Below are positions 25,780-46,158 of a stretch of DNA of 64,000 nucleotides, piece after piece. The stretch spans positions 1-64,000 of the forward strand of contig NZ_FNPH01000003.1 in the NCBI RefSeq assembly GCF_900107255.1, read 5' to 3'. Position 1 is the first letter of the stretch. Every line of letters starts with the position of its first letter. Under the pieces are notes generated by a model. That model was not told the origin of the DNA, made no database searches, and saw only the letters and a program-made list of their open reading frames with translations. Position numbers and translations under genes: made by a program. This DNA comes from Micromonospora pattaloongensis. GTDB lineage: Bacteria; Actinomycetota; Actinomycetes; Mycobacteriales; Micromonosporaceae.

Positions 25780-25795
25780 TCCACCGCGGTAAGCC

Positions 25796-27248: not shown

Positions 27249-27331
27249 GCGGCCGAAACGACACCATGTGCGTCCCCGTGGCCAATTCCGGCCGCGCCGC
27301 GGGACGCCACGTAAGGACTGAAGCGGCAGCA

Positions 27332-27363: not shown

Positions 27364-27477
27364 TTGTCGTACACGGCGCGACGAACCCTGACGGCCCGCG
27401 TCGAGCCGGGTCGGGCGGTCGCCGTCACGAGCATGACTATCGCCGCGGGACCCGACGAGGCGTGTGAGGATGGAGCC

Positions 27478-30755: not shown

Positions 30756-31781
30756 GTGGAGTCGAGGTCGCCGCGGACATCACCGTGGCGCCGTTTCCTG
30801 GCCGCCACGCTCGCCTGTACCGCGCTACTGGCTTCCACCGGGGGCTGCGCGCAGGAGAAGGACGACCGGCCGCCCGGATGCCGACACGTGTCGGAGAAGC
30901 TGGAGCCGGCGTGCGGAGCCTGGCTGGGCATCTGGCCGCGCACCCGGGCCGACGGCACGATGTCGGTGGATCTCGGCGCCAACCTGGCGAGCCTGGAGGA
31001 ACGCCTGGGCCGCCGGATTGACCTGGTGAGCCGCTACTACGGGTGGGGGCAGGAGTTCCCGGACGCGTGGGACCGGCAATGGCGCGACGGAAACCGCATC
31101 CTCCTGATCGACCTGCGCGCCCGGAACTTCTCCACCAACACCTACGTGTCGTGGCGGTCGATCGCCGACGGGGAACACGACGAGTACCTCGCCCGCCTCG
31201 GCGCGCGCATGCGCGACTTCGGGGCCCCGGTGTTCTTCTCGTTCAACCAGGAGCCAGAACAGGAGCTCGAAAAGGGAACGCGGGTGGCGGGCACGGCCGC
31301 CGACTTCGCGGCGGCGTACCGGCATGTCCGTGAGGTGTTCGCGCGGGCGGGCGCCCGGAACGTGGTCTGGGTCTGGTGGATCATGGGATACCTGGGCCAC
31401 ACCGGCTGGTACCACGCGCTCTACCCGGGCGACCGGTACGTCGACTGGATCAGCTACGACCCGTACGACTTCAACAGCTGCAAGGGAGGCGGCCACGAGA
31501 CGCCGGAGCAGAGCGTGATGCCGTTTCTGACGTGGTTGACCGCCAGCGGCATCGGCAGCGGGAAGCCGGTGATGCTGTCGGAGTTCGGCAGCAACGGCAC
31601 CGACCGGCACGACTGGTACGCCGGGCTCGGCGACGTGGTCAAGAAGGCGCCCCGGATCAAGGCCATCGTGTCGTTCAACTCGAACCCCGGCGGCTGTGAC
31701 ACCCGGGTGACCAACTCGGAGAGCAACTGGCGCGGCTTCGCCGGCCTGGCCGCCGACCCGTACTTCCGGCAGCGCGGCTGA
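30756..31781 (+). CDS. GH26-like secreted lipoprotein (endo-mannanase/glycanase fold)
   Basis: A 341-residue predicted lipoprotein with lipobox ASTGGC (Cys31) and a single GH26-like TIM barrel. The expected acid/base Glu166 is in FFSFNQEPE, and the nucleophile Glu276 is in VMLSEFGSNG. WISYDPYDFNSC is shared with the second GH26-like protein at 43.6-45.2 kb. GTG 30756 has GGGAGG 8 bp upstream. It is the only plus-strand gene of the polysaccharide island and converges on the GT2 gene. It may trim or turn over the polymer made by the neighbouring genes; the linkage attacked is unknown. Confidence 0.75.
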   Translation: MESRSPRTSPWRRFLAATLACTALLASTGGCAQEKDDRPPGCRHVSEKLEPACGAWLGIWPRTRADGTMSVDLGANLASLEERLGRRIDLVSRYYGWGQEFPDAWDRQWRDGNRILLIDLRARNFSTNTYVSWRSIADGEHDEYLARLGARMRDFGAPVFFSFNQEPEQELEKGTRVAGTAADFAAAYRHVREVFARAGARNVVWVWWIMGYLGHTGWYHALYPGDRYVDWISYDPYDFNSCKGGGHETPEQSVMPFLTWLTASGIGSGKPVMLSEFGSNGTDRHDWYAGLGDVVKKAPRIKAIVSFNSNPGGCDTRVTNSESNWRGFAGLAADPYFRQRG

Positions 31782-31798
31782 GCCGCCGCCGGAGCCGC

Positions 31799-32719
31799 TC
31801 AGATTCCGCGGCCGCGCTTGTGCAGCGACCGCAGCACGGCGTCGGCGGGGACGGCCCGGGTGGCGACCGCGAGCGCGAGGTAGGCACGCGGTTCCCGTGG
31901 ATTGCGCGCCAGCGTCCGCCGCGCCCACCGCACCGCGTGCCGGCGGTTGCCGGCGGCGGCCTGCGCGAACGCGATCTGCCCGGCCACCCGCGCCTCGCCG
32001 AGCGGTTGCGTGGCGAACTCGGGATAGCGCTGCAGCAGCCACTGCAGAGCACTCGCGATGGTGTCCCAGCGCTGCGCGAAGTAGGAGCGTTTGTGCCAGC
32101 GCACCAGCACGTAGGGGGTGCGCAGGTTGACCAGTGGGGCGCTGCGGGCGGCCCGCAGCAGGAATTCGTAGTCCTCGGCGTAGCTGCCGGGGATCTCCTC
32201 GTCGACCAGGCCGAAACCCTGGTGCAGCGCGGCGCGCCGGATCAGGAACGTCGACGGGTGCAGCTCGGTCATCCGGTCGCGCAGCAGCGCGGCGAGCGGA
32301 ACGGATTCGAACGGGAGGCTGCGGTCAGTGGTACGGCCGTCGTAGCTGACCCGGATGCCGCAGCTGGCGAACTCCGCGCCGGGCACGGCCAGCAGCGCGT
32401 CGACCTGGGCCCGCAGCTTGCCCGGCAGCCACTCGTCGTCGTCGTCGCAGAACGCGACCAGCTCCCCGCGGGCGTCGAGGATGCCGGAGTTACGCGCCCC
32501 GGCCAGCCCCGGCGTGCGGGAGTTGACGATCACCCTGACCTGTCGCCGCGGGTCCGCGGTCGTCGCCAGCGACATGTCCGGCTCGGACTGGTCGTGGACC
32601 ACCACCGCCTCGATCGTGCCCGGGTAGTCCTGGGTCAGGATCGCGGCCAGCGCGGCACGGAGCAGCTCCGGCCGGTCCCGGGTGGGCACCACGGCGGTGA
32701 CGGAGGGGTAGTCGGTCAT
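31799..32719 (-). CDS. Family 2 glycosyltransferase
   Basis: A 306-residue GT-A fold glycosyltransferase. The nucleotide-sugar site is seen as VTAVVPTRDRPELL, GARNSGILDARGELVAFCDDDDEW and the later acceptor region EIPGSYAEDYEFLLRA. No membrane segments are present, so it works at the cytoplasmic face. A helical C-terminal extension (about 225-306) resembles a short TPR region. It is the third gene of an operon with the Alg14-like and Alg13-like genes, separated from the latter by 8 bp. Donor and acceptor are unknown. Confidence 0.85.
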   Translation of the reverse strand: MTDYPSVTAVVPTRDRPELLRAALAAILTQDYPGTIEAVVVHDQSEPDMSLATTADPRRQVRVIVNSRTPGLAGARNSGILDARGELVAFCDDDDEWLPGKLRAQVDALLAVPGAEFASCGIRVSYDGRTTDRSLPFESVPLAALLRDRMTELHPSTFLIRRAALHQGFGLVDEEIPGSYAEDYEFLLRAARSAPLVNLRTPYVLVRWHKRSYFAQRWDTIASALQWLLQRYPEFATQPLGEARVAGQIAFAQAAAGNRRHAVRWARRTLARNPREPRAYLALAVATRAVPADAVLRSLHKRGRGI

Positions 32720-32727
32720 GGTCCTTC

Positions 32728-33378
32728 TCACTCTGCGCCCGGCAGGGCGGGTCGGCGCTGCCGCCGGAACGCGGCCCGGCGCGGTCTGGCGGTGGCGACG
32801 AGCTCCTCGACGATCCGGCCGACGCGCGCCACGGCCGCCAGCCGCGCCGTCTGCACGTCGGCGTTGGCGGTCACGGTGAACGCGCGGGGCCGCGCCAGGC
32901 CGGCGTTGAGCGCCGCGGCGAGGGCGGCCCGCGACTCGCACAACTCGATCATCCCGGCGGCACCGAGTCGGCGGGCGAAGAGCTGCTGATGGTTGTCGAC
33001 GTGCTCCAGATGGGACGGATCCCGGGGCACCACGATCGGCAGGTGGCCGTGGCGGCGCGCCTCGAGGATGGTGGCCGGCCCGCCGTGGCACACGACGAGC
33101 GTGGCGGCCGCCATGCCGTTCTGCAGCTCGGCGTGGCTGAGGAAGGGCACGGAGCCGGGGATCGCCGGCTGCCGGCTGTGCCCGTACTGGATGACCATGG
33201 TGGGCCGGGTCAGGGTGCCGGCGTACCAGTCGTCGAGCCAGTCGATCAGCCGGTCGAAGCGGTGCTTGTCGGTGCCGACGGCGACGAGCACGGTGTGGGC
33301 GGGCTGGAATCCGCCGGTGCGCTGACGCGGGATCCGGGCGCGGGCGGTGGTGCGGGGCGCGGGTACGTCGACGCTCAC
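32728..33378 (-). CDS. Alg13/PssE-like glycosyltransferase catalytic subunit
   Basis: A 216-residue protein resembling the C-terminal half of GT28/MurG-type enzymes. It has a start region HTVLVAVGTDKHRFDRLIDWL, a donor-binding loop LVVCHGGPATILEARRHG and PIVVPRDPSHLEHVDNHQ. In bacterial capsule systems this half (PssE/Cps14G) works only with a separate membrane-anchoring half (PssD/Cps14F), which is the gene immediately upstream. Its GTG overlaps that gene's TGA as GTGA, so the two are coupled. Together they should transfer one sugar to a lipid-linked intermediate. Confidence 0.78.
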   Translation of the reverse strand: MSVDVPAPRTTARARIPRQRTGGFQPAHTVLVAVGTDKHRFDRLIDWLDDWYAGTLTRPTMVIQYGHSRQPAIPGSVPFLSHAELQNGMAAATLVVCHGGPATILEARRHGHLPIVVPRDPSHLEHVDNHQQLFARRLGAAGMIELCESRAALAAALNAGLARPRAFTVTANADVQTARLAAVARVGRIVEELVATARPRRAAFRRQRRPALPGAE

Positions 33379-33857
33379 AGCAGCGGCCCCACCACGGTGG
33401 CCTCCGGATAGCTGCGCCGTTGCTCCTCCCACTGGACGAGCATCGCCGAGATGAAGGGGCGACATAAACGTGCAGTCAACGTAGGAGTGTCAATTCGGTC
33501 GTACACCTCGATATAGACCGAAGGCACCCGGCGCAATCGCGCGGCGATCACAAAGGGTAGAGCCACACCTGCACCCGTTGTGATAACCGCGGCGATGTTT
33601 CTCGTGCGGAATAGACGCAATGCGACAAAAGTGTTACGAAGAAGGTTACGAATGTTACGGGTCGTCGGGTGATGCGCCCAGGTCACCTCCTCGGCGGCCA
33701 GCAGCGATGCCGCATCGGGGGTGTCGAAGGTGACCCAGTGCCGCCGCCGCCTGCGGTACCACGGCTCCAAGGCCAGCAACTGCGCGAGGTGCCCTCCGCT
33801 CGAGCCGACGAGCAGGATGAGAGCGTCATCCTCCGCCATGCCCACGATATCGCCCAC
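33375..33857 (-). CDS. Alg14/PssD-like glycosyltransferase accessory subunit
   Basis: A 160-residue protein with the Alg14/PssD pattern: LILLVGSSGGHLAQLLAL at the start, then ITTGAGVALPFVIAARL and VYIEVYDRIDTPTLTARL. This half recruits the catalytic Alg13-like partner to the membrane. The start is uncertain: GTG 33857 follows GGGGGG closely, and ATG 33839 is an alternative. Its middle part is visibly richer in A and T than the rest of the window, with runs such as GTTACGAATGTTACG, which suggests a different history from its neighbours. Confidence 0.75.
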   Translation of the reverse strand: MGDIVGMAEDDALILLVGSSGGHLAQLLALEPWYRRRRRHWVTFDTPDAASLLAAEEVTWAHHPTTRNIRNLLRNTFVALRLFRTRNIAAVITTGAGVALPFVIAARLRRVPSVYIEVYDRIDTPTLTARLCRPFISAMLVQWEEQRRSYPEATVVGPLL

Positions 33858-34043
33858 CGATCCCCCCCAGACCCGACCAGGTACGCCCCATACACATGGT
33901 TGACCAAACGTGAATGCCTGCCAACGTCTGCCGGCGTACCGTCAAATGTCCGACACGCCGCTACCGGAGATAATCTACCGGGCGTGATATCGCCATTACT
34001 GTGAGAAATTTCGTGCCTCGCGCCCAATGGGACGACACTCTCG

Positions 34044-35315
34044 TTATTCGCAGAGCCGACGCTCGATCTCGTCGAGCAGGCCCGGATGCAGCGTCGGGTT
34101 CCACCCCGCCCCGCCGTCGGCGAGCCGCCAGGTGCGCAGCCACATCTCGACCAGATACGCGTCCACCACCAACCGCCGCTGCCGTTCATCGAGCCCGAGC
34201 CGGGCGCCGTGCCGGGCGACCAGGTCGTCCGCCGCCCGCACGGCCTCGGACAACGGCCGGGCCCGCAGCACGAGCGCGCACTGGAAACCCTGGTGCGCCA
34301 GGTCGAACCCGACCGGCGCGTCCGACCCGCTGTGCTCCCAGTCCCAGGCCACCAACCGCCCGGCGCGGGCGCCCAGGTTCCACGGCACCCAGTCCCCGTG
34401 CCAGTCACCGAACTCCACCAGCGTCGCTCCGTGCCGCTCACCGAGCCGCCGCACCGCGTCCACCGCACGCGCGCCGGCCTCGACCGCGGCGGCCGACCCC
34501 GACGCCCGGTCGGCCAGGCCCGCGAGGAACGGCGAACCCGCGAGCTGCCGGGTCGGCCGCGGCGGCCCGCCCCGGCGGGCGACGGCGAGCAGCTCGGCCA
34601 GCCGGGGCGGCGCGTCGGCGTCCACCCCGCGTACGTCGGGCGGCAACGGCTCGATCACCGTGACCGCCTGCCCCGCCCAATCCCCGTGCCACGACACCCG
34701 CGGCACGAGCGGATAGCCCGACGCGGCGGGCGGTCGGGGCAGCCGCCCCAGCGCGGCGGCCTCCGCCCGGACCAGGCCACGGGTCGCGTCGTTCCAGCCG
34801 ATCTTCGCGTAGCCGCGCGGTCGCCCGGTCACGTCGAACAGCTGCAGCGTCGGCTTGTGGTTGGGATCCGGCGGCCGCACCCCGAACGCGCCGACCAGCG
34901 GGCCCTGCCCGAGCGCGGCGGACACGTGCGCGGCGAGCACGAGCTCCGCCGCCTCCGCCGCGCCCGGGATGGACACGGTGAGGACCGGCATCCGGGCCAA
35001 CTGGAGCGCGCCCAGCCACGCCGCCGCCCCGAGCGCCGCGCGCGCGGCGCGCACCGTGGGAGGGCGCAGCGCGTTGTAGGCGAGCACCGACGCGGCGGTC
35101 ACCCGCCGGGTCCCCAACGGCAGCAGGAACCGCGCCCGGTCGACCGACGGGACGATCGCGTACCGGGCCACGACGCGCCGGCCCGCTTCGGCGGCGGCCC
35201 CCGAGCCGACGGTCAGCCGCACCCGCGGATCCGGGAAGACCGCCCGCGTCACCCAGCCCAACCCGTCGCGACGCCCCCGCGGGTCGCCGACGCGGGGTTC
35301 CGCGGCGCGCGTCAC
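34044..35315 (-). CDS. Aminoglycoside-phosphotransferase-like kinase in the polysaccharide operon
   Basis: A 423-residue protein whose C-terminal half has the APH/choline-kinase catalytic signature: VEFGDWHGDWVPWN (HGD and Asn of the catalytic loop) followed by LVAWDWEHSG, the metal-binding segment. The N-terminal 150 residues are of unknown fold. It is the last gene of the polysaccharide operon, and its GTG overlaps the sulfotransferase TGA as GTGA. In this setting I infer a sugar, choline-type or lipid-linked-intermediate kinase rather than a drug-resistance enzyme. The substrate is unknown. Confidence 0.75.
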   Translation of the reverse strand: MTRAAEPRVGDPRGRRDGLGWVTRAVFPDPRVRLTVGSGAAAEAGRRVVARYAIVPSVDRARFLLPLGTRRVTAASVLAYNALRPPTVRAARAALGAAAWLGALQLARMPVLTVSIPGAAEAAELVLAAHVSAALGQGPLVGAFGVRPPDPNHKPTLQLFDVTGRPRGYAKIGWNDATRGLVRAEAAALGRLPRPPAASGYPLVPRVSWHGDWAGQAVTVIEPLPPDVRGVDADAPPRLAELLAVARRGGPPRPTRQLAGSPFLAGLADRASGSAAAVEAGARAVDAVRRLGERHGATLVEFGDWHGDWVPWNLGARAGRLVAWDWEHSGSDAPVGFDLAHQGFQCALVLRARPLSEAVRAADDLVARHGARLGLDERQRRLVVDAYLVEMWLRTWRLADGGAGWNPTLHPGLLDEIERRLCE

Positions 35316-36256
35316 GCGGACAGCCCGGCCCAATCGAAGCTCATGCCCAGCCGGCGCTGGAGCGCCTCGCTGTACGGCCGGTAGTAGTCGGTCAGCTCGG
35401 CGCGCAGTCCGGGGTCGAGCGGCGCGGACCGGCGGTCGTTGTAGACCTTGAAGTCCGGCAGGTCGTGCGGCGGGAGCCCGAGGAAATCCAGCACCCGCAG
35501 GTACGTGGCCCGCGCGTCGCGGTAGAGCTCCTCGCTCGGCAGCACCAGCAGCTGCGACCGGTCGAACAGCCGCAGCCACGGCTCGAGGTGCTCCAGGTAA
35601 CGGCCGCGGGCCCGGTACGTGTACCAGTCGTACGGCTCGCTGAAGTAGTCCGGGTCGGCCATCATCCGGTCCCACTCGCCGATGGTCCGCTCCTGCTCCC
35701 GCGCCAGCGCCTCGGCGAAGTCCAGCGGCTCCCTGCCCTCCGTGCGCCGCTCCTTCCAGTGCGAGTACGCCCGCTCGACCGGGTCGCGCAGCAGCACGAT
35801 CAGCCGGACCGTCGGCATCAGGTCGTGGACCCGCTGGGGCACGTGCGGATGGAACATGTAGAGCGGCGACGCCTCCCCCACCCGCACCGGTCCACCGTGG
35901 CGGCTCTCCAGCGCCGCCCGCTGGCGCACGGTCGGGAAGTGCGACCGGTACCACGCCTCGCCGCGCGCCCAGTTCTCCTCGAAGTAGTGCGGCGACTTCG
36001 TGTTCCATGCCGGGAAGAGCCGGGGTACGAGCGGATGCTGGATCAGGTAGTTCCACAGCGACGTGGTCCCGCCGCGCTTCGTGCCGATGATGAGGAAGTC
36101 CGGCAGCGGGCGGCGGTCACTGGTGCGCTGGCCGTAATAGACGAGCGACTCCTTCACCCGCGCCGTGACCCGGGCCGGGACCGCCGCCTTCACCCGGTCG
36201 CGAAGAGATGACACGACGTACGCCACCTGCCCTTCCTGAGTTGTCGACCCCTTCAT
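35312..36256 (-). CDS. PAPS-dependent sulfotransferase
   Basis: A 314-residue soluble sulfotransferase. The 5'-phosphosulfate loop is IIGTKRGGTTSLWNYL, and the 3'-phosphate-binding segment is LIVLLRDPVERAYSHWKE, with the Arg and Ser expected of the family. It resembles heparan/NodH-type carbohydrate sulfotransferases more than aryl sulfotransferases. ATG 36256 overlaps the flippase TGA as ATGA, a tightly coupled position inside the polysaccharide operon. The simplest reading is that it sulfates the polymer or its lipid-linked repeat unit; no PAPS-synthesis gene is in the window. Confidence 0.85.
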   Translation of the reverse strand: MKGSTTQEGQVAYVVSSLRDRVKAAVPARVTARVKESLVYYGQRTSDRRPLPDFLIIGTKRGGTTSLWNYLIQHPLVPRLFPAWNTKSPHYFEENWARGEAWYRSHFPTVRQRAALESRHGGPVRVGEASPLYMFHPHVPQRVHDLMPTVRLIVLLRDPVERAYSHWKERRTEGREPLDFAEALAREQERTIGEWDRMMADPDYFSEPYDWYTYRARGRYLEHLEPWLRLFDRSQLLVLPSEELYRDARATYLRVLDFLGLPPHDLPDFKVYNDRRSAPLDPGLRAELTDYYRPYSEALQRRLGMSFDWAGLSA

Positions 36257-37824
36257 GCGATGTCGACGGAGGCGCGGGGAACGGCTCCGCCACCCCGAAT
36301 CTGTTTCATGATCGCCCACAACCGCCGACGCGGGCCCGGGATCGTCAGATAGCTGACGCAGCCCAGCGCGAGCAGGGCCAGCGCGACGGTCAGACCCTCG
36401 ACGCCCCGTCCCACAACGGTTACCGCCAGTACGCTCACGGCCCCGACGGCGGCGACGACAGCCAGCCCGGCGCGGGCCATCGCGGCGTTGAACAGCGGGT
36501 GGCCGACCACCCGGCGCGCCGCCGCCGCCGCGACGAGGTTCTCCACGACGATGCCGGCGCCCCAGGCCAGCGCCGCGCCGACGGCGCCGTGCCGCGGAAT
36601 CAGCGCGACCCCGAGCGCCACGTTCACCGCCAGATTGGCGAGCGTGCCGGCCAGGTGCAGACCGCTGCGACCACCCATCAGCAGCAGGGACTGAACGTTA
36701 CCGACGGTGATGTTGACGAGCATCGCGACGGCGAGCACCGTCATCGCCGTGGCGCCACCGGTGAAGCCCGGACCGAACAGCTCCAAAAAGCCCGGCCCGA
36801 AGACGGCGAGCAGCAGGTAGACCGGCGCCGACAGCACCAGCGACCAGGTCGTCATCTGGCGGTGCACGGCGGCCGCCGCCGCGCCCTGCCCCCGGCCGAG
36901 CAGCCGCGACAGCTGCGGCGCCACCGCCACCCGCAGCCCCTGGAGCGCCAACTGACCGGCGAGCACGTACCGGCCCACCGCCCCGAAGATCCCCGCCTCG
37001 GCCTGGCTGGACAGGGCCGCCGTCAGCAGCACCCCCACCCACATGCTGCCGGCGTCGATCGCCGCAGAGGCGGCGCGCGGGAGCGCGAAGCGCCAGAAGG
37101 CCGGCCAGTCGGAGCGGACGGGACGCAGTCGCGCGCCGCGGCGAAGGCCCAGCGGACCGGCGACGAGCGCCGCGGTCACCACGAGCGCGACCGCCGCCGG
37201 CACCAGCCAGCCGATCATGCCGAGCACCACCCCGCCGCCGGCCAGCGCGGCGGCGCCGACCAGCGCCGGGCGACCGATCGGCAGCAGCAGGAACTGCACG
37301 GCGACGTACGGCCCGATCGGGCGCAGACCGCGCAGCGCGGCCAGCATCAGCGTCATGGCCACGACGACGGGCAGCGCGGCGAAGGCGGCCCGCAGCAGGG
37401 CCGGGCCGGCCGGGCCGGAGGCGTCGAGCAGCCGGGGCGCCAGCGCGTCCGCGGCCAGCACGCCGCCGATCGCGACGGCCACCGCGGCGACGATCGGCGG
37501 GGCCAGCGCGACCGGCAACACCCGGGGGGCGTCGCCGCCGCTGCCGCGCCCACGGCGCGGCAGCGCCCACAACAGGCCCGTCTCGGCGCCGAGCGTGCAG
37601 ATCGCGGTCGCCACCGTCACCACGCCGATCGCCGCGAAGAAGCCCCCCGCTCCGGTCGTGCCGTACGACCGCGTGATCACCACGGCCAGCACGAACCCGA
37701 ACAGGCCGCTCGCGGCGGCGCCCAGCAGCCCGATCGAGCCGCTGCGCGCGCTGCGGCCCATCTCGGCCGGCGTCGCGCTGTCGCGGTCCGGGTCGCGCGC
37801 CGCCCGGTCGACGCCGGCCGTCAC
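36253..37824 (-). CDS. Wzx-like polysaccharide flippase
   Basis: A 523-residue membrane protein with about 14 hydrophobic segments of the MATE/oligosaccharide-flippase superfamily, starting SIGLLGAAASGLFGFVLAVVITRSYG. It should flip undecaprenyl-linked repeat units to the outer face. Its GTG start overlaps the preceding ligase/polymerase stop as GTGA, and its own stop overlaps the sulfotransferase ATG. This places flippase, polymerase and chain-length genes side by side, as in Wzx/Wzy pathways. Confidence 0.85.
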   Translation of the reverse strand: MTAGVDRAARDPDRDSATPAEMGRSARSGSIGLLGAAASGLFGFVLAVVITRSYGTTGAGGFFAAIGVVTVATAICTLGAETGLLWALPRRGRGSGGDAPRVLPVALAPPIVAAVAVAIGGVLAADALAPRLLDASGPAGPALLRAAFAALPVVVAMTLMLAALRGLRPIGPYVAVQFLLLPIGRPALVGAAALAGGGVVLGMIGWLVPAAVALVVTAALVAGPLGLRRGARLRPVRSDWPAFWRFALPRAASAAIDAGSMWVGVLLTAALSSQAEAGIFGAVGRYVLAGQLALQGLRVAVAPQLSRLLGRGQGAAAAAVHRQMTTWSLVLSAPVYLLLAVFGPGFLELFGPGFTGGATAMTVLAVAMLVNITVGNVQSLLLMGGRSGLHLAGTLANLAVNVALGVALIPRHGAVGAALAWGAGIVVENLVAAAAARRVVGHPLFNAAMARAGLAVVAAVGAVSVLAVTVVGRGVEGLTVALALLALGCVSYLTIPGPRRRLWAIMKQIRGGGAVPRASVDIA

Positions 37825-39164
37825 GACTTCCCCCCGGCCGCGACGACCCGCGCCCGCGCCACGACGGTCGGGCCCGTCCGCCAGGGTCGCGCCAGACGCC
37901 AGCGCGTCAGCGCGCGCTCGCGCCCGGTCAACGCCAGCGCGAACCCGGCGGCGAAGAACGCGGCGGTCAGGTTCTGGTTGACCAGGCCGTAGAACGGGGT
38001 CTGCACCAGGCCGATGAGCGGCACGACCGACAGCCACTGCCCCGCCGGCGAGGACGCCTTGGAACAGATCACGAACGCCGCGACGAACCATCCGAGGAAG
38101 CAGACCAGCGCCGGGATCCCGTGGCTGAACAGCACCATCCACAGCTGTCCCTGCGTGCCGATCGGGGCCTGCGCGGTGACCGTGTCGACGGTGACGGGCG
38201 CGCCGAAGCCGAGCAGCGGCGACTCGCCGACCCGGCGCAGCACCTCCAGGTAGAGCGACATCCGATCGGTGTTGGTGTCGCTGGCGCTCACCCGTTGGTC
38301 GATCATGTCGGTGATCGGGATGAACAGCATGACGAGCCCGCCGAGCACGGTCACCCCGAGCATCGAGGCGGCGACCCGGAGATTGCCCCGCAGCGTCGCC
38401 CGCACCCCGAGGAACGCCAGGCCCACCCCGAGGCTGAGGAACATCCCGCGGTTGAGCGTGAGGAAGGCCGGCGGCAGCGAGAGCGGCAACGAGATCAGCA
38501 GTAACGCCCGGAACAGGCCCCGGCCGCGCAGCATCACGAAGGCGACCACGCACGGCAGCGTCAGGGCGTACGCGCTGCCGTAGTTGTTGGTGTACGCGAA
38601 CGGCGCGGCCGGCCGGTAGATGGGGTTCAGCGACCGCGGGTTGTACTCCGCGGTATGCAGGTGGACCATGTCCCGGATGAACGGGTTGCCGGCGACCCCG
38701 CCGGGCAGCAGCAGCTCCATCGGGGTGGCCATCGACAACCGGGGCGCCAGCACACCGAGCCAGCCCAGCAGCACGAGGCCCAGCCAGAAGCCGCAGAGGG
38801 GCGCCAGCACCGGGGTGGCGTCGGCGCGTTCCCGGGCCGCGGAGTAGACGTACGCGCAGACGATGAGCGCGGTGACGTAGAACGCGAGCCGCAGTCCGAA
38901 GGTCAGCATCGCGGCCGGCGACGGCAACCGGATCGCGCTGAGCACCACGAGCCCCAGGAACACCAGCCAGAACGCGCTGGCCGGTGGCAGCGGCACCCGC
39001 CCCCGCGTCGCCATCAGCGCGAAGAGCAGCACCCCCAGCAGCGGCCAGCCGAGGTAGAAGACGCCGGCCGCCCACCACAGCGGGGTGAGCCCGAACATCA
39101 GGAACAACGGCCAGAGCGGCAGCACCGGCGGTCGGGGCGGGCCGACCGCCGACGGGTCAGCCAC
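37821..39164 (-). CDS. Wzy-like O-antigen polymerase/ligase-family membrane protein
   Basis: A 447-residue membrane protein with 10-12 hydrophobic segments and one large external loop. The loop contains the Wzy_C-type stretch LNRGMFLSLGVGLAFLGV and, further on, DRMSLYLEVLRRVGESPLLGFG. Such proteins polymerise repeat units or ligate polymers. GTG 39164 overlaps the end of the Wzz-like gene by 8 bp. In this operon a polymerase role is most likely, because flippase and chain-length genes flank it. Confidence 0.85.
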   Translation of the reverse strand: MADPSAVGPPRPPVLPLWPLFLMFGLTPLWWAAGVFYLGWPLLGVLLFALMATRGRVPLPPASAFWLVFLGLVVLSAIRLPSPAAMLTFGLRLAFYVTALIVCAYVYSAARERADATPVLAPLCGFWLGLVLLGWLGVLAPRLSMATPMELLLPGGVAGNPFIRDMVHLHTAEYNPRSLNPIYRPAAPFAYTNNYGSAYALTLPCVVAFVMLRGRGLFRALLLISLPLSLPPAFLTLNRGMFLSLGVGLAFLGVRATLRGNLRVAASMLGVTVLGGLVMLFIPITDMIDQRVSASDTNTDRMSLYLEVLRRVGESPLLGFGAPVTVDTVTAQAPIGTQGQLWMVLFSHGIPALVCFLGWFVAAFVICSKASSPAGQWLSVVPLIGLVQTPFYGLVNQNLTAAFFAAGFALALTGRERALTRWRLARPWRTGPTVVARARVVAAGGKS

Positions 39165-40788
39165 GGCCGCTGCGGGTGAAGACGTATCCGAGCGGCTCGG
39201 CGCCGGCCGCGCGCAGCCGCTCCACCAGCCGGCGCAGGTCCGTCACCCGCGTCCGGTTGCGCTCCACCACCACGATCGCCGTGCCCCGGCGCGCCTCACC
39301 GACCCCGCGCTCGTCCAACTCCGCCGGGGGCGCGTTGAACAGCACGATCTCCGTCTCCGGCGCGCCCTGATAGGGCCCCACCCGCACCCGTCCGGTCCCC
39401 ACCTTGAGGACCTCCGGCGACACCGTCCGCACCGGAACCTCGGCCATCGTCGTGGTCACCACGCCGTCCGCCGTGGACGTCGCCAGGAACTGCTCGGCGA
39501 CGGCGGGCGTGATCCGGGGAAGCCTGACCGTGGCATCCGCGTCCCCGTCCGGCGAGCCCGCGTCCGGCCCGGCCGGACCGGGTCGCTCCCCCGCCGACCC
39601 GCTCGCGCCGAGCTGGCGGGGCGGGGCCGGCGCCGCCGGGGTGGGCCGCTGGTCGGCCATGAGCACCGCGCGCAGCTGCGCGACGCGCCCGCTGTCGTCG
39701 CCGACGTACACATCCTTGCCGTCCGCGGCCAGCGCCACGGCCAGGCTCGCGGTCATCAGCGTGGTGTCTTCCCGGGCACGCGACGCGATCACCACGACCG
39801 GGGTCCGTACGGCGTGCGTGAAGCGCTCCGCGATCGCCATCGCCACGTAGCGCACGTCCGCGTCCACGGCCTTGCTCCGGGTCCGGAAGCCGCGGCTGCG
39901 CACCGCGCCGAGCAGCGGCAGCCCGGCGGCGTCGTGCGCGTCCGCGGCCGTGCGCACCACCCGCTCGGTCGACTCCCGCACGTACGCGAACACGATGCCG
40001 AGCAGCAACCCGCCCAGCGCTCCGGCGAGGACGTACAGCGCGCGGTCGTCGGTCGACGTGGTCAGTGGCTCGGCGAACTGCGTGACCCAACCCGGCGTGA
40101 CGTCGATCGAGGCGATCTCGGTGCGTGCCGAGTTGAGCTGGGCGAGCTGCGTGTTGACCGCACCCAGCTCGGCCAGGGCGGCCGCCTCCGAGCCGGTGCC
40201 GTTGGCGGCGGCGATCCGGCGCTGCAGCGACTGCTGCTGCTGCACCACCTTCGCGATGCTGGCGTCGTACGACTGCAGCATCGACGTCCGCTGCTTCTCG
40301 TACATCGACTTGCGGACCTTGAGGTAGGTGTCGGCGGCGAGGTTGACGGTCGCGACGGCCACGTCGACCGAGGGCGCGGTGTAGGAGAAGCGCAGGATCT
40401 GCCCGCCGGTCGGCACCTCGATCTGCAGTGCGTCCCGGACGTCGACCGGGGCGGCCCCGCGATCCCTGGCGATGATCTGGATGACCTCGGTGCTGGTCGC
40501 GATCCCGCTCTCGACGTTCATGTTGACCGAGCGGTCGGCGCTCGCGCCGGTCGGGGTGAAGGCGTCGGTGACGACCGGGCGTACGGCGACGACCGCGGCG
40601 GCGGTGACCGTCGTGGGCGCCAGCAGCACGTAGCCGAGCGCCACGGCGAGCCCGACGAGCGCGGTCGCCGCCACGGCGCGCCACCGGCTGATCGGGATGC
40701 GGATCAGGTCGGTGAGGGTGACGGCGCGTTGTGGTTCGACCGTACGGCGACGCTCGACGGGCCAGGGCGGAGCAGCACGGTCAGTCAT
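39157..40788 (-). CDS. Wzz-type chain-length protein with a degenerate tyrosine-kinase-like domain
   Basis: A 543-residue membrane protein. The N-terminal half is a Wzz domain between two membrane helices (about 36-58 and 245-265), with a periplasmic coiled coil around IAKVVQQQQSLQRRIAAANG. The C-terminal half aligns by position with bacterial tyrosine kinases, but the P-loop reads SRAREDTTLMTAS instead of a GxGKT-type loop, and no C-terminal tyrosine cluster exists. ATP binding is therefore doubtful. It probably controls polymer length without kinase activity. Its start overlaps the acyltransferase gene by 8 bp. Confidence 0.78.
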   Translation of the reverse strand: MTDRAAPPWPVERRRTVEPQRAVTLTDLIRIPISRWRAVAATALVGLAVALGYVLLAPTTVTAAAVVAVRPVVTDAFTPTGASADRSVNMNVESGIATSTEVIQIIARDRGAAPVDVRDALQIEVPTGGQILRFSYTAPSVDVAVATVNLAADTYLKVRKSMYEKQRTSMLQSYDASIAKVVQQQQSLQRRIAAANGTGSEAAALAELGAVNTQLAQLNSARTEIASIDVTPGWVTQFAEPLTTSTDDRALYVLAGALGGLLLGIVFAYVRESTERVVRTAADAHDAAGLPLLGAVRSRGFRTRSKAVDADVRYVAMAIAERFTHAVRTPVVVIASRAREDTTLMTASLAVALAADGKDVYVGDDSGRVAQLRAVLMADQRPTPAAPAPPRQLGASGSAGERPGPAGPDAGSPDGDADATVRLPRITPAVAEQFLATSTADGVVTTTMAEVPVRTVSPEVLKVGTGRVRVGPYQGAPETEIVLFNAPPAELDERGVGEARRGTAIVVVERNRTRVTDLRRLVERLRAAGAEPLGYVFTRSGRG

Positions 40789-41392
40789 TGAACTTCTTTA
40801 CTATCTGCTGAGGGTTGCCGATCACGACCACCCGCTCGGGCACGTCCGTCCGGACGACCGTGGCCGCGCCGACCACGCTGTCGTGTCCGATCCGGACGCC
40901 TTTCATCACCAGCGCGTGCGCGCCGATCCACACGTTGTCCTCGACGACGATCGGCGCGCGCGTCGCCGGCACGGGCGGCTCGTGCCGGCGCAGCGGGTCG
41001 AGGTTGTGGAAGTCGTTGTCCACCAGCTCGCAGTCCGACAGCAGGCACCGGTCGCCGATGGTGACCGCCGTCCAGGTGCCGATCCAGGTGGCGTTGAGCA
41101 GGCAGTCCGCGCCGACGTGGACGGTGCCGGGCCCGGCGAAGCGCACCAGTTTGTTGAGTCGGGTGCGGTCACCGATCGTGACCCGGACGCCGCGGCGGAG
41201 CCGGATACGACCCCGGATCTGCACGTCCCGTCCGAGCCGCAGCCGCGGATAGCGCACCCGGTAGTAGGCGCGCTTGACCGCGAAGACGCCCCGCAGCAGC
41301 CGGTCTTTCACGGACGCGTGTGGCAGCACGTCGGCTTTTCCTCCCCCCGAGGACGCCCTGGGCCGACGACGAAGCTTCCGCCGTCGGCCCAC
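40781..41392 (-). CDS. Hexapeptide-repeat acyltransferase
   Basis: A 203-residue left-handed beta-helix acyltransferase. Hexapeptide strands run from about residue 55 to 195, and the CoA-binding end is VEDNVWIGAHALVMKGVRIGHDSVVGAATVV. DNDFHNLDP holds the probable catalytic His. It is the first gene of the overlapping polysaccharide operon. It likely O-acetylates a sugar of the repeat unit. The start codon (GTG 41392) is uncertain because a basic leader precedes the domain. Confidence 0.82.
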   Translation of the reverse strand: MGRRRKLRRRPRASSGGGKADVLPHASVKDRLLRGVFAVKRAYYRVRYPRLRLGRDVQIRGRIRLRRGVRVTIGDRTRLNKLVRFAGPGTVHVGADCLLNATWIGTWTAVTIGDRCLLSDCELVDNDFHNLDPLRRHEPPVPATRAPIVVEDNVWIGAHALVMKGVRIGHDSVVGAATVVRTDVPERVVVIGNPQQIVKKFND

Positions 41393-41432
41393 ATCACGAC
41401 AACCTACCGGACATTTACGTTCATGGACGGCC

Positions 41433-43424
41433 TCACTGCGCCGAGAAGAACATGGTGGAGGTCGACCAGTTCAACGCGGAGCTGCGCTGGGCGAGCACCA
41501 CGGCGGCGGCGCCGTCGACGGCCGGTGCGGTGGTGGGGTCGAAGGGGACGGACCGCAGACGCCCATCCGTCGCGCCGTAGACGATGTTTCCATTGACCCA
41601 CGCCATCCCGCGCACGCCGGACCAGCTGAGCCCCTGGGTGGGGAGGGTGAACTCGGTGGCGCCGAGGTAGCCGCCGTCGATCTCGAAGTAGCGGTAGTAC
41701 AGGGCACTGCTGCCCGACCTGGTGTAGTAGAGACGACCGTTGAGGAAGAAGGCGCCGGTCATGGCGGTGGCGTTGTACCAGTCGTTGTAGCCGGAGGCCT
41801 CCCAGGGGGCGCCGACCGTGGTGCCGTCGAACGTCGAGACGTCGATCCGGCTGCCGCTCGGGGTGCCGGAGACGGTGTGGGCCCAGTAGATGCGGTCGGC
41901 GACGCGCCAGCTGGCACCGGCACGGGTGAAGTTCGGCTGGCTGGTCGCCGTCACCGTCGCCGCGTCGACCGCGCTGCCGTCGAACGCCACCTTGCTGAGT
42001 TGGCCGTTGGCGGTGCCGAGGTAGAGGAAGCCGTCGGTGACGGTCGGCGGGTTCCGCGGCGCGACGCTGCGGCCGCCGGCGAGCGGGAACATCCCGAGGC
42101 GTCCGTGGTACTCGTTGCCCATGCCGTCGGAGTTCTGCCCGAAGTAGATGCCGTCGGACCCGCGCCAGAGCACGGGCACCGCAGAGTCCCAGTTCACGGC
42201 GCCGGGCGGCAGCGCGGCTCCCGCGGTGCGGCGGGGATTCCAGTTGAGCGGCATGCCCGTGGCGGGGTTGACCGCGCCGACGCCGAGGCGGTCGATCGCA
42301 CCGTTGCCGGCCCGGTCGCTGGCGTTCGGGTTGTTCAGCCAGCGGAAGTGCCCGCCGAGGTAGACGACGCCGTCGGCCACCTCGATCGAGGTGATGGTGT
42401 CGTTGCCGGTGAAGTTGACCCACGTGGCGAGCAGGTTGCTGCCACGATCGGCGGTCTCGAACCGGACGAGCGCGTCACAGTAGGCCGCGGGCCAGCCGGC
42501 GCCGCCGTTGCTGCCGACGATGAAGTAGCTGCCGTCGGCGGAGAAGGACACGTCCTGCACGTAGTGCACGAAGGTGGTCGGCGCAGCGCACGGCGGAACG
42601 TACTTCTCCGTGCTCCAGTCGAGCAGCGTCGGCGTGCCGGAGAGGTCGACCAGCGCGAGCTGGTTCCGGGATGCCCCGTTGACCTGCATGAAGTTGCCGC
42701 CGGCAACCAGGGTCCGGCCGTCGGGGGCGACGTCGATCGTCCACACGTAGAACGCGGTGTCGTGCCGGCCGACCGTGGCGTCGACGACGAAGGTCGGGTC
42801 GATGGCGCCGGTGGAGGCGTTCACCCGGGCCAGACCCGAGTGGGCGGTGCCGTTGATCCAGGAGAAGGCGCCGGCGACGTACAGCGAGTTGCCGTGCAGA
42901 GCCAGGTCGCGCACCGTGCCGCCGTCGGACCGCCCCACCCAGCTCGCGACCGTCTGCCCGGTGGCGGGGTCGAGCGCCACGAGATTGCGCCGCGCGACGC
43001 CGTTGACGTTCTTGAACGCGCCGCCCACGATCAGGTAGCCGTTGGGGCTGACGACCAGGGTGTTGACCGCGCCGTCCAGCACCGGGGCGAAGCTCGTCGC
43101 CAGCGCCCCGGTGGTCCTGTCGTATCCGAAGAGGAAACTGCGCGGGGTCCACGTCGTCGCCGACGCCTCCTTCACCTGGGTGAAGGTGCCACCGACGTAC
43201 ACCACGTTGCCGATCTCGGCGAACGCGCGCACCTCGCCGTCCTTGGCGTGCGGCGTCTGGTCGGCGGGGTTGGTGGAGACCAGCCGGGCGGGGGCGGGCG
43301 CGGGGACCACGGCCGCGGACGCGGTGCCGGCCGCCATCGTCACGGCCAGAAATGACCCCGCTACGGCAAGTAGGACCGCCCGTCCACGACGGAGTCCGTG
43401 ATGACGCCGAGCACGTCTGGGCAT
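41433..43424 (-). CDS. Secreted beta-propeller-type protein with delta-60-like repeats
   Basis: A 663-residue exported protein with a Sec signal peptide ending near TASAA (about residue 37). The rest consists of repeating blades of the type GNVVYVGGTFTQV, NGYLIVGGAFKNVNG and NSLYVAGAFSWING, which match delta-60 repeats. No catalytic motif is recognised. ATG 43424 has GGGAGG about 10 bp upstream. It lies 40 bp before the polysaccharide operon on the same strand, so read-through is possible. A surface protein that binds the polymer is a reasonable guess, not a demonstrated function. Confidence 0.75.
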   Translation of the reverse strand: MPRRARRHHGLRRGRAVLLAVAGSFLAVTMAAGTASAAVVPAPAPARLVSTNPADQTPHAKDGEVRAFAEIGNVVYVGGTFTQVKEASATTWTPRSFLFGYDRTTGALATSFAPVLDGAVNTLVVSPNGYLIVGGAFKNVNGVARRNLVALDPATGQTVASWVGRSDGGTVRDLALHGNSLYVAGAFSWINGTAHSGLARVNASTGAIDPTFVVDATVGRHDTAFYVWTIDVAPDGRTLVAGGNFMQVNGASRNQLALVDLSGTPTLLDWSTEKYVPPCAAPTTFVHYVQDVSFSADGSYFIVGSNGGAGWPAAYCDALVRFETADRGSNLLATWVNFTGNDTITSIEVADGVVYLGGHFRWLNNPNASDRAGNGAIDRLGVGAVNPATGMPLNWNPRRTAGAALPPGAVNWDSAVPVLWRGSDGIYFGQNSDGMGNEYHGRLGMFPLAGGRSVAPRNPPTVTDGFLYLGTANGQLSKVAFDGSAVDAATVTATSQPNFTRAGASWRVADRIYWAHTVSGTPSGSRIDVSTFDGTTVGAPWEASGYNDWYNATAMTGAFFLNGRLYYTRSGSSALYYRYFEIDGGYLGATEFTLPTQGLSWSGVRGMAWVNGNIVYGATDGRLRSVPFDPTTAPAVDGAAAVVLAQRSSALNWSTSTMFFSAQ

Positions 43425-43606
43425 GGCGAGGCTACCTCCCGGTCGGGGATCGAACCCGCGTAGCGTGCTCCCTATCGGGATGATCTCGTAATCCACCGAT
43501 CGGCCCGCGCGACTATCTCGAACACGACAATAGACGACCTTCATGACTATGCGCATTCCGCGGCGAAACGGACCGTAGCCGTACATTCGCGTTGTTTGAT
43601 TCACCC

Positions 43607-45238
43607 TCACCGTTGCGGGCTCACCGGCTGACGCAGGTAAGGGTCGTGGCCGGCCGCGATGAACCCGCTCAGCGCCGCGGCGGTGTGCCCCAGCGTCATG
43701 TTGCAGGTCACGCTCGTGGTGGTCGAACCCGCGGAGTTGAAGTAGACCGCCGCCTTGATCTTCGGGTGGGCCTTCAGCGCCGCCGGGAACTCCTCGAACC
43801 ACCGCCGCTTCGCCGACGGGTCGGCCGGATCGAAGTTCGTCCCGAACTCGGCGAGCATCCGAGGCTTGCCGGCGCCGATCCCGTTCCCGTCCAGCCACCG
43901 GTAGAACGTGCCGATCGTCGTCGCCGGGGACTTCCACGTCCTGCCGCCGTTGCAGGCGTAGAAGTTGTACGGGTCGTAGCCGACCCAGTCCACGTACGCG
44001 TCACCGGGGTAGAGCCGGGCATAGCGGTCGTAATAGCCGGACGACCCCATCACGGTCCACACCCACACCGCGTTGTCCGCGCCGGCCCGGGCGAACCGGT
44101 CGTGCACGTGCCGCCACGCGGCGACGAAGTCGGCGTCGCTCCCCTTCGCCGGCTCGTCCTCGGGCTCATGGTCGAAGCCCATGAAGACCGGCGTCCGGGT
44201 CGCCGCGATCCGCCGCGCCACGTCGTCGATCACGGCGTCGTACCGCCCGCCCGAGACGTCCCGCCACGTCAGCGTGGTGCCGGAGGAGAAGATGCGCGAC
44301 TCCCAGGCGAAGAACATCAGCCGGCCCTCGGCCATCTGCGCCTTCTCGAACGCGTCCGGGAACGCCCCGTTGCTGCCGCTGTTGGAGAAGTCGTGGTACC
44401 GGTGCACGATGTCGAACCGGCGGCCGATCTGGGCCTCGATCTCGGCGACCGCCGCGCCGTGGTTCCACGATCTGGTGGCGTCGGTGGGCGAGTACATCCC
44501 CCACCACGCGCCGCAGGACGGGACGAGCGTGGCGGACACGGTCCCGCAGGCGTCCGACGGCGTCGGGCTCGGGGAGGTCGGCGCGGGCGTCGGGGCAGCC
44601 GGCGCGGGGGCCACGGTCGCCGGCGGCGCCGGCCGCACGGTGTACGTCAGCGCCAGGTGCGGCCTCAGCGTCCGGTCGCGGTACTCGGCCGACGCCCAGT
44701 AGACGCGCCGCTCGTAGCGCTCCTGCAGCAGCGCGACCGTGTACGTGCCGTTGCGGGTCACCAGCGCCGACACGTCCCACTCGTTGAAGCCCTTCGACAC
44801 GCGCGGGACCGAGCCGAGCTGGGCGCCGGGCTTCGCCCGCGCCGGCCGCGCCGCACGCGCGTCGCTGGTGGAGCGGTGCGCCGTCACCTTCGCCGGGTAG
44901 GCGCTCCAGGAGTAGACGCGCAGCTTCGCCCGCACGTTGACCGCGTTCGCCGGCAGGGACGTCACGGTGAAGCGCAACAGCGCGTCCCGCCCGCCCCGCG
45001 GGTTCTTCTCACACCGCGTCGCGCAGGTGGCCAACGTGGTCTTGCGGGCGTTGTCGCCGTCCTGGACCACCGCGGTTGCGGTGGTGTCCGCGGCCGCGTA
45101 GACCCGGGTGTCGGCGGCGGACAGCGGCGGCGCCGCGCCGAGCGTGCCGGCGACGAGTGCGGCGGAGATCAGGACGATCAGTCGTCGACGACGGCCGGCG
45201 TGCGGCGCGCGGACGCGGTGCGACCTGTGCCTGCTCAA
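43607..45238 (-). CDS. Secreted GH26-like protein with N-terminal DNRLRE-type domain
   Basis: A 543-residue exported protein: signal peptide to about residue 42, a DNRLRE/CBM96-like beta domain (about 43-180, DALLRFTVTSLPANAVNVRAK), a proline/threonine linker and a GH26-like barrel (about 215-540). The catalytic pair is in GFDHEPEDE and MLAEFGTN. It closely parallels the lipoprotein at 30.8-31.8 kb, including VGYDPYNFYAC. No in-frame ATG or GTG precedes the signal peptide; I chose TTG 45238 because GGGGGG lies 6 bp upstream. Being released rather than anchored, it may act on free or wall-bound polymer. Confidence 0.75.
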   Translation of the reverse strand: MSRHRSHRVRAPHAGRRRRLIVLISAALVAGTLGAAPPLSAADTRVYAAADTTATAVVQDGDNARKTTLATCATRCEKNPRGGRDALLRFTVTSLPANAVNVRAKLRVYSWSAYPAKVTAHRSTSDARAARPARAKPGAQLGSVPRVSKGFNEWDVSALVTRNGTYTVALLQERYERRVYWASAEYRDRTLRPHLALTYTVRPAPPATVAPAPAAPTPAPTSPSPTPSDACGTVSATLVPSCGAWWGMYSPTDATRSWNHGAAVAEIEAQIGRRFDIVHRYHDFSNSGSNGAFPDAFEKAQMAEGRLMFFAWESRIFSSGTTLTWRDVSGGRYDAVIDDVARRIAATRTPVFMGFDHEPEDEPAKGSDADFVAAWRHVHDRFARAGADNAVWVWTVMGSSGYYDRYARLYPGDAYVDWVGYDPYNFYACNGGRTWKSPATTIGTFYRWLDGNGIGAGKPRMLAEFGTNFDPADPSAKRRWFEEFPAALKAHPKIKAAVYFNSAGSTTTSVTCNMTLGHTAAALSGFIAAGHDPYLRQPVSPQR

Positions 45239-45342
45239 CGGGAGCCCCCCTACGGCGTGCGCGTGCTGTCGCGGGGAATATCGGCACGGACGTCCCGAAG
45301 TTGACCTGCTGAGTAGATCCGAGGGGTCCCGTTGATCGTGAC

Positions 45343-46158
45343 CTAACGGCCGGTTGCGTCGCGCTGCTCCGGCCCGGTCACCGGCACGTCCGCGAACGCG
45401 GCGACCGTGCGATCGGCGTACGCGCTGGCGTCGCCGTACTCCATGGGGCCGTCCCACTCCGACGGCAGCGGGACCGTCACGCCCGGCGCCACCCGCCGGA
45501 CGATCTCGTCCAGCACGGTCTCGGCGTCGCCCACCCAGAGGTGCTTCGCGCCCGGCACCCCGACCACCTCGGCCTGCGGGACCGCGGCGAACCGCTCGCG
45601 CGCCTCCACCGGGCGCAGGTAGTCGTCGAACTCCGGAACCAGCGCCGTCAGCGGCTTGCCGGAACCCGCCCAGACGGCCAGGTCCGCCTCGGCCGAGAAC
45701 CGCAGCGGCGGCGAGAGCAAGATCGCGCCGGTGACCGCCGGGTCGCAGCCGTACCTGAGGGCGAGGTCGGTGCCGAAGGACCACCCGAGCAGCCAGAGCG
45801 CGGGCAGCTCGGCGAACTCCGCGTACTCGATCGCCGCCGCGACGTCGAACCGCTCCCCCACCGCGTTGTCGAACACGCCCTCGCTGGTCCCACGCACGCT
45901 GCTGGTGCCGCGGGTGTTGAATCGCAGCACCGCGACGTCGGCGAGCGCGGGCAACCGCCACGCGGCCTTGCGGAACACGTGGCTGTCCATCATCCCGCCG
46001 TGGGTCGGCAGCGGATGCAGGCAGATCAGGGTGGCGACCGGGTCACGGTCGGCCGGCAGGGCCAGCTCGCCGACGAGGGTCAGCCCGTCGGCGGTCTGCA
46101 GCTCGATCTCCTCCCGTCGGGCGGGCAGGATCGACGCGGCGCGGATCGCAGTGCTCAC
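45343..46158 (-). CDS. Alpha/beta-hydrolase (dienelactone-hydrolase-like)
   Basis: A 271-residue cytoplasmic hydrolase with the nucleophile Ser in LLGWSFGTDLAL, the oxyanion segment ICLHPLPTHGG and a catalytic His in VPGAKHLWVGD. GTG 46158 follows a GGAG at short spacing; the frame is open to 46290, but that leader looks non-coding. It resembles the hydrolases that many actinobacteria carry near acyl-CoA genes. The substrate is unknown. It marks the end of the polysaccharide island. Confidence 0.82.
   Translation of the reverse strand: MSTAIRAASILPARREEIELQTADGLTLVGELALPADRDPVATLICLHPLPTHGGMMDSHVFRKAAWRLPALADVAVLRFNTRGTSSVRGTSEGVFDNAVGERFDVAAAIEYAEFAELPALWLLGWSFGTDLALRYGCDPAVTGAILLSPPLRFSAEADLAVWAGSGKPLTALVPEFDDYLRPVEARERFAAVPQAEVVGVPGAKHLWVGDAETVLDEIVRRVAPGVTVPLPSEWDGPMEYGDASAYADRTVAAFADVPVTGPEQRDATGR

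Follow-up and report, generated by a model that had tools for sequence, protein, structure and literature searches.

This study concerns a stretch of 64,000 nucleotides of the genome of Micromonospora pattaloongensis (positions 1 to 64,000 of contig NZ_FNPH01000003.1, hereafter called the window), and in particular an island between positions 30756 and 45238 that is predicted to encode the assembly of a sulfated extracellular polysaccharide. Stop codons, start codons and the G+C content at the codon positions served to reconstruct the gene string, and names were assigned via Pfam and NCBIfam. On the minus strand, the string reads from 5' to 3' GH26b, propeller, acyltransferase, Wzz, Wzy, Wzx, sulfotransferase (ST), kinase, pssD, pssE and GT2. 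Its central genes encode a hexapeptide-repeat O-acyltransferase (40781-41392; Hexapep_2, 1.6e-9), a Wzz-like co-polymerase with a C-terminal kinase-like part (39157-40788), a Wzy polymerase with an O-antigen-ligase fold (37821-39164), a Wzx flippase (36253-37824), a carbohydrate ST dependent on 3'-phosphoadenosine 5'-phosphosulfate (PAPS) (35312-36256; PF00685, 1.7e-17) and an APH-fold kinase (34044-35315). Consecutive genes overlap by 8 bp (acyltransferase/Wzz and Wzz/Wzy) or 4 bp (Wzy/Wzx, Wzx/ST and ST/kinase), in agreement with an earlier, sequence-only reading of this DNA, which had proposed a single operon with overlaps of 4-8 bp. The Wzx/ST overlap hinges on an ATG at 36256 and is gone if the alternative GTG at 36226 is used.

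After a gap of 186 bp behind the kinase gene follow, also on the minus strand, pssD, encoding an Alg14-like subunit (33375-33857, alternative start at 33845; Alg14, 5.1e-10), pssE, encoding the Alg13-like subunit of a PssD/PssE glycosyltransferase (32728-33378; PF04101, 2.8e-13 in the scanned open reading frame (ORF) 32728-33465) and overlapping pssD by 4 bp, and a GT2 glycosyltransferase gene (31799-32719; PF00535, 1.7e-20 in ORF 31799-33091). These are the three glycosyltransferase genes that had been noticed beside the operon. Upstream, and detached from the overlapping run by 40 and 182 bp, are the genes for a secreted beta-propeller protein (41433-43424; DUF5122, 2.3e-14 in ORF 41433-43937) and for GH26b (43607-45238), a GH26 glycosidase with a signal-like segment and a CBM96 domain (CBM96, 1.8e-6, and PF02156, 1.3e-4, in ORF 43607-45961). 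At the opposite end, on the plus strand, lies the gene for GH26a, a lipoprotein-like GH26 glycosidase homologue (30756-31781), so that the island is limited by the outer ends of two inward-facing GH26-type genes. A promoter scan yielded 0 promoters, and 6 terminator-like structures were found vs. 3.7 in shuffled sequences (standard deviation 2.5); neither result was above the shuffles.

By its sequence, the ST is predicted to be a carbohydrate-type sulfotransferase, a claim that concerns membership of the superfamily and not of an animal subfamily. In a phmmer search, it matched the heparan sulfate 3-O-sulfotransferase (3-OST) 3-OST-3 at 4.4e-20 (other 3-OSTs more weakly), N-deacetylase/N-sulfotransferase (NDST) at 2.1e-12 and cytosolic enzymes at 4.8e-3. 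With a profile of 17 rows, the values were 1.6e-33 for 3-OST-3, 1.4e-28 for NDST, 4.7e-4 for protein-tyrosine sulfotransferase and 0.1 for cytosolic enzymes. In this score ranking, the ST is closer to glycan sulfotransferases than to cytosolic or protein-tyrosine ones, and the clustering with small-molecule enzymes that the sequence-only reading had regarded as fatal to its proposal was not seen; a small-molecule sulfotransferase is disfavored. Among all solved chains, the best match was 3rnl (6.8e-25).

The proteins for assembly and export were mostly placed via their homologues, as a Pfam match is lacking for Wzx, Wzy and the kinase of the window itself. A simple hydropathy count gives 15 hydrophobic segments for Wzx, and MatE and Polysacc_synt domains were found in 10 and 6, respectively, of 19 aligned homologues, which places it in the MATE/Polysacc_synt flippase group. 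For Wzy, 18 of the 19 aligned homologues contain a Wzy_C domain, and its AlphaFold model (predicted local distance difference test score (pLDDT) 86.3) had a single Foldseek match below 1e-3, i.e., WaaL (7tpg, 9.2e-7); it is assigned through these homologues together with the WaaL fold. The Wzz-like protein has two hydrophobic segments, compatible with a Wzz/polysaccharide co-polymerase; its matches to PF02706 (0.0011) and, in NCBIfam, to EpsF and EpsG are weak and below cut-off. Its C-terminal part shows weak similarity to EpsG and MinD in NCBIfam, again below cut-off, and no Walker A motif match was found in the protein, of which the family alignment comprises 17 sequences. This kinase-like part without Walker A could be a pseudo-tyrosine kinase (pseudo-BY-kinase). 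PssD matches NCBIfam PssD at 6.6e-29, slightly below cut-off, and PssE matches PssE (1.5e-16) and WelK (6e-19), both below cut-off; by the same NCBIfam names, their nearest named relatives include a glucuronosyltransferase.

The kinase was modeled as 392 residues, from position 35222, with a pLDDT of 91.7. Foldseek matched it to APH(4)-Ia (9.9e-7) and also to fructosamine-3-kinase, glucosamine kinase and maltokinase. Its motifs HGD....N and WD.E are intact and invariant in 20 rows, and the APH Pfam domain was found in just one of the 20 aligned relatives; fold and motifs (HGD....N and D.E) together identify an APH/choline-kinase-like protein. The acyltransferase has WbbJ/WcaF-like NCBIfam matches below cut-off. 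The propeller protein starts with a hydrophobic segment and has homologues in most loci that carry the ST lineage of the window's cassette, here called type II. GH26a has no Pfam match; it is 39% identical to GH26b over 315 amino acids (E 8e-72), and a 63% identical homologue is present in an Actinocatenispora comari locus. The closest solved chain to GH26b, of which the PF02156 match is weak, is 'Endoglucanase H' (5.5e-13). The stretches around both catalytic Glu residues, which we presume to occupy the family positions, align between GH26b and this chain and between GH26a and GH26b, which assigns both proteins to the GH26 type.

The gene string recurs in dozens of species. An ST match (E<=0.001) was found in 42 of 61 genomes (the organism's own and 60 relatives), and in the 29 best relatives' loci, with flanks of ~1.5 kb, a wzx match was present in 28 and a kinase match in 25; the ST thus lies locked within a Wzx/Wzy operon, between wzx and the kinase gene, as had been proposed. 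An ST at E<=1e-40 occurs in 129 of 150 Micromonosporaceae genomes, a sample that contains the organism's own; 31 of these, again with the own genome, have a type-II ST (>=65% identical), the other listed matches being at <=50%. In named genomes, a scan found 56 loci at >=67%, mostly in Micromonospora but also in Salinispora, Verrucosispora, Actinocatenispora, Actinoplanes and others. In 32 of these, wzz, wzy, wzx, ST, APH, pssD, pssE and GT2 follow each other in the same order and on the same strand, e.g., in M. lupini Lupac 08, M. rosaria DSM 803 and Salinispora mooreana DSM 45549, and the window's GT2 is 68-82% identical to its counterparts in loci with the full order. Another 16 deviate in that GT2 stands between wzz and ST, and eight are incomplete, seven of which adjoin a contig end. 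The same scan gave 23 weaker loci (<=50%), in Nocardioides and other Nocardioidaceae, Arthrobacter, Paenarthrobacter, Phycicoccus, Acidimicrobiales, one Bacillus, cyanobacteria and others, and one partial Micromonospora ST. For 11 genes, compared over three to five pairs of species per gene, the ratio of nonsynonymous to synonymous substitution rates (dN/dS) was 0.02-0.35. Because of this recurrence and these ratios, the string is considered real, conserved and not due to chance, and it is probably a functional cassette. The cassette is a conserved unit common to many soil and marine actinobacteria. No description of the Micromonospora/Salinispora cassette was found in the open-access literature searched, and the accessible text of PMC4182475 contains no exopolysaccharide, sulfotransferase, capsule or glycosyltransferase terms.

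In the window, the cassette is located between the gene for an AI-2E family transporter on its left (29442-30650, plus strand; PF01594, 5.9e-53) and a conserved hydrolase-like gene on its right (45343-46158, minus strand), which are convergent neighbors. The latter has no Pfam match, and we take it to be a hydrolase from its motifs; 125 of the 150 family genomes have an orthologue of it (E<=1e-90). Of 64 family genomes with both border genes on one contig, 25 have a closed junction (<=150 bp), bearing out the earlier suggestion that the island sits between core genes. The distance is 150-5000 bp in 11 genomes, 5-45 kb in 22, including the window with 14.7 kb as the shortest of these, and >45 kb in six. 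Among the other 21 inserts, none contains a type-II ST, as judged by the ST positions from the 150-genome scan. Nineteen of them were read in part, the remaining two (G085 and G063) having their border genes on one strand and possibly representing a different site; 16 of the 19 carry at least eight genes of a different conserved cassette, and three showed few or distant matches. The copy of this other cassette in genome G001 encodes Polysacc_synt, Wzy_C, GT2 and GT4 proteins and a Wzz-like one below cut-off. It was seen at the same junction in many genera, mostly with a large GSDH-type protein (loci L142-L146 and L152-L164), and a related GSDH/PKD protein is encoded just outside the island, at 48580-51645 of the window. 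To the left of the island, at 24325-29268, are two DivIVA-like coiled-coil genes (weak Pfam matches, below cut-off) and an alcohol-dehydrogenase-family gene, a set that we take to resemble the scy/filP neighborhood of Streptomyces, which would fit the remark in the sequence-only reading that the neighbors of the flanking core genes resemble a conserved Streptomyces region.

Elsewhere, the cassette has other neighbors. Among 41 near-complete cassettes, aroC and aroK are found to the right of 33, aroB of 29, and genes that are presumably aroQ, efp and nusB of 28, 24 and 19, respectively, and 19 have aroE on their left; aroC was recognized through PF01264, and aroE, aroK and aroB were Pfam-checked on one locus each. 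In the window genome itself, the aroC-aroE interval measures 2.6 kb and contains no cassette gene; by eye, its ORFs (L173:9574-12150) resemble genes for an efflux transporter and for subunit a of ATP synthase. The cassettes in G033 and G001 have flanks common to neither group. As most loci lie on the aroC side and the window's at the AI-2E/hydrolase junction, the cassette holds at least two conserved core sites in Micromonosporaceae. Entry via an integrase or at a tRNA gene found no support: the window contains no tRNA, no integrase was among the Pfam matches of the scanned ORFs, and, among imperfect repeats of 20-43 nucleotides, no pair was seen to join both borders beyond two matches, i.e., a 90% inverted match of 20 nucleotides (30586-30605/44435-44454) and a 77% match of 26 nucleotides inside the two GH26 genes. 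We tentatively suggest that the junction might serve as an exchange locus for whole surface-polysaccharide cassettes, with a logic like that of capsule loci. It would be closed in some lineages, occupied by one conserved Wzx/Wzy cassette in others and, in this genome, by a cassette for a sulfated polymer that otherwise lies mostly next to aroC, and the type of surface sugar would change as whole cassettes are exchanged among constant positions in the core genome.

For the supply of PAPS, the genome has one gene for a fusion of sulfurylase and adenosine 5'-phosphosulfate (APS) kinase (C27:364724-366247). Of the 36 non-type-II ST loci of >9 kb, nine contain a sulfate-activating gene: sulfurylase/APS kinase in six (L044-L049), a CysN-like gene in two (L054 and L121) and both in one (L122). 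The CysN-like label is our assumption from the EF-Tu-type GTPase domains found. Such genes stand beside related ST clusters in Arthrobacter sp. Soil763 (L121:16757-17998) and in a metagenome-assembled Microbacteriaceae genome (L122:8733-9965). Only one other ST gene of the window genome was among the matches listed at the threshold of the family scan (C17:59801-60571). It belongs to a second operon, of ST, wzx, wzz and wzy (C17:59795-64677, L056:9796-14678), in which ST and wzx overlap by 4 bp; a GT4-like gene follows behind, and an APH-fold kinase was not found there. Four further sulfotransferase-family genes surround a GT4 gene at C17:41014-46076 (L055:11015-16077).

We consider it likely that the island is a Wzx/Wzy cassette for a short-repeat sulfated extracellular glycan, which is portable in Micromonosporaceae and is inserted here at the AI-2E/hydrolase junction. 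This is supported by the families, the folds, the occurrence of one gene order in 32 of the 56 loci and the dN/dS values, by the fact that the ST is nearest to heparan-sulfate sulfotransferases among characterized enzymes and far from cytosolic ones, and by the fusion gene of the genome together with the linked activation genes of the non-type-II loci. From the computed gene order, families, folds, conservation and sites, we infer the following scheme, in which each chemical step, the order of the steps and the place of the polymer, at the hyphal or spore surface, are proposed. A priming enzyme encoded elsewhere would load the lipid carrier, to which PssD/PssE and GT2 would add sugars. The cytoplasmic ST would then move sulfate from PAPS onto the lipid-linked repeat, the hexapeptide enzyme would O-acylate it, and the APH-fold kinase would phosphorylate a sugar, although the kinase could also act on a sugar precursor rather than on the polymer. 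Wzx would flip the decorated unit, Wzy would polymerize it and Wzz would set the length, and the secreted propeller and GH26 proteins may bind, trim or release the polymer. In most species read, the cassette is situated beside aroC. The polymer is probably sulfated. Of the sulfated, acylated and perhaps phosphorylated polymer proposed in the sequence-only reading, the carbohydrate-type ST, the acyltransferase and a kinase fold with intact motifs are borne out, and the modifications themselves stand as predictions.

Several observations weigh against this proposal. Sulfation is, for every strain with such a cassette, a prediction from the genes, and the best match of the ST in the Protein Data Bank, 3rnl, is an uncharacterized bacterial protein. 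The PAPS-loop lysine has a catalytic role, and the residue is Lys in the heparan-sulfate enzymes and in 3rnl but Arg (R51) in all 17 ST rows. A sulfate-activating gene (sulfurylase/APS kinase or CysN-like) was present in none of the 59 type-II loci of >9 kb, and the supply gene of the window genome lies ~320 kb from the cassette. One of the 56 loci (L080) lacks a kinase match despite 10 kb of following sequence. No priming phosphoglycosyltransferase was present among the Pfam results for the cassette, and the three PF02397 genes of the genome are all on another contig; unlinked priming is compatible with a Wzx/Wzy-dependent system, in which an in-cluster primer is not an absolute requirement. 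The genetic nature of the prediction, the lack of activation genes in these 59 loci and the many substrate types covered by PF00685 leave some room for an ST or kinase with another target than the polymer, e.g., a lipid, protein or small metabolite, and hence for an unsulfated polymer. We consider this improbable, as the ST gene overlaps both wzx and the kinase gene, wzx adjoins it in nearly all relatives' loci, and the nearest characterized enzymes sulfate glycans. The product may instead be a wall-linked or lipid-linked glycan with 'Wzy' as its ligase, since the Wzy model matches the WaaL ligase and polymerases and ligases have a common fold by which they are not separable. This appears rather unlikely, given the Wzz-like partner, of which the gene overlaps wzy as is typical of polymerase systems, and the two GH26-type genes with signal-like segments, which suggest an extracellular polymer.

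The remaining alternative is that the island is this genome's orthologue of wps-1 (AMIS_7280-7380), a cluster of Actinoplanes missouriensis that was published in June 2026 and is needed for sporangia, as described in the accessible part of the report (PMC13390465). According to this text, single removal of wpsA, C, G, H, I, J or K results in squashed sporangia like those of the whole-cluster mutant, and wpsG to wpsK encode Wzx, sulfotransferase, a kinase-like protein, Wzy and Wzz; sulfation of the product was predicted by the authors and not demonstrated (PMC13390465). These phenotypes support a Wzx/Wzy cassette for a sulfated glycan in the window as well, and the core of Wzx, ST, kinase, Wzy and Wzz, with GH26, is common to the island, wps-1 and wps-1-like loci. 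One such locus (L049) contains GT2, second ST, GT26, GH26, methyltransferase, wzx, ST, kinase, wzy, wzz and a sulfurylase/APS-kinase gene in the wps-1 order, without a wpsD counterpart, and L044-L048 and L051 show much of this order; the fusion gene of the window genome is 83% identical to a copy beside a wps-1-like cluster. In the ST tree (a quick search with midpoint root, 31 open forks among 94 inner branches and no A. missouriensis ST included), the window's ST belongs to a Micromonosporaceae clade of 62 rows (SH-aLRT 100), whereas wps-1-like STs form a separate clade of 11 rows (99). It is 40-44% identical to them, and the kinases are 29-34% identical. Moreover, the matches listed include a second ST, 38-47% identical, for at least 16 of the 31 genomes of type II; hence, the ST types appear to coexist in one genome. 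Gene content differs, too, as detailed below. Orthology with wps-1, which was judged from the published description and the wps-1-like loci rather than from A. missouriensis protein sequences, is therefore very unlikely.

To our knowledge, Micromonospora and Salinispora form no sporangia, and a sporangium matrix is thus not the general purpose of the polymer. The sequence-only reading had called such a polymer unusual for actinobacteria; this should be dropped for Micromonosporaceae, since ST relatives are present in 129 of 150 genomes of the family, further ones occur in acidimicrobial genomes and in those of Nocardioides and Arthrobacter, and wps-1 has been published as a related cluster (PMC13390465). 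The comparison of the gene string and the site among relatives, which it had recommended, showed a cassette that is a conserved unit, mostly beside aroC and in this genome at a different junction, which is new here. If the polymer is sulfated, a trait known mainly from cyanobacteria, with further reports on marine Vibrio and Cobetia, also belongs to a large actinobacterial family of soil and sea, and the role of such polymers could be addressed in a family that can be grown in culture. Furthermore, the way in which actinobacteria alter their surface sugars could be studied through the occurrence of one entire cassette at different conserved positions of the core genome.

Parts of the cassette resemble known enzymes. 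Like the split glycosyltransferases PssD/PssE and Cps14F/Cps14G, the island has two adjacent, overlapping genes of Alg14/Alg13 type; unlike these, its pair scores below the NCBIfam cut-offs. With heparan sulfate 3-OSTs and NDST (PF00685), the ST aligns over ~215 residues, including the PAPS loops and a P-H-[YF]-F stretch; it differs in being a bacterial protein, in having no hydrophobic segment and in the Arg discussed above. At the level of whole systems, the Synechan cluster of Synechocystis PCC 6803 is alike in its sulfated exopolysaccharide and in the sulfotransferase and Wzx terms in the accessible text (PMC8205485), but it is cyanobacterial and is likened to the island by description only. 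Relatives of the ST that are 41-44% identical occur in Laspinema and Oscillatoriales; six such cyanobacterial loci contained no wzx, kinase or propeller of the island's cassette at the search threshold. One cyanobacterial stretch has a methyltransferase neighbor and glycosyltransferase-like ORFs, and another contains mainly housekeeping-like genes, mostly judged from translations. Vibrio sp. KMM 8419 and Cobetia marina KMM 1449 likewise produce sulfated capsular polysaccharides with a described gene cluster, but they are Gram-negative marine bacteria and are also compared by description only, from the accessible texts (PMC11641403, PMC11766843). The closest resemblance is to wps-1, as far as described, in Wzx, a heparan-sulfate-type sulfotransferase, a protein-kinase-like neighbor, Wzy, Wzz, GH26, GT2 and a predicted sulfated product (PMC13390465). 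Its second ST, GT26 (WecG-type), methyltransferase and adjacent sulfurylase/APS-kinase gene are absent from the genes called in 30756-45238, whereas the island has PssD/PssE, the acyltransferase, the propeller and two GH26 genes, and the chromosomal sites differ. Judged by its ST in the tree with wps-1-like STs, the island is a lineage other than wps-1, with other glycosyltransferases, and represents a variant of a just-published kind of cluster.

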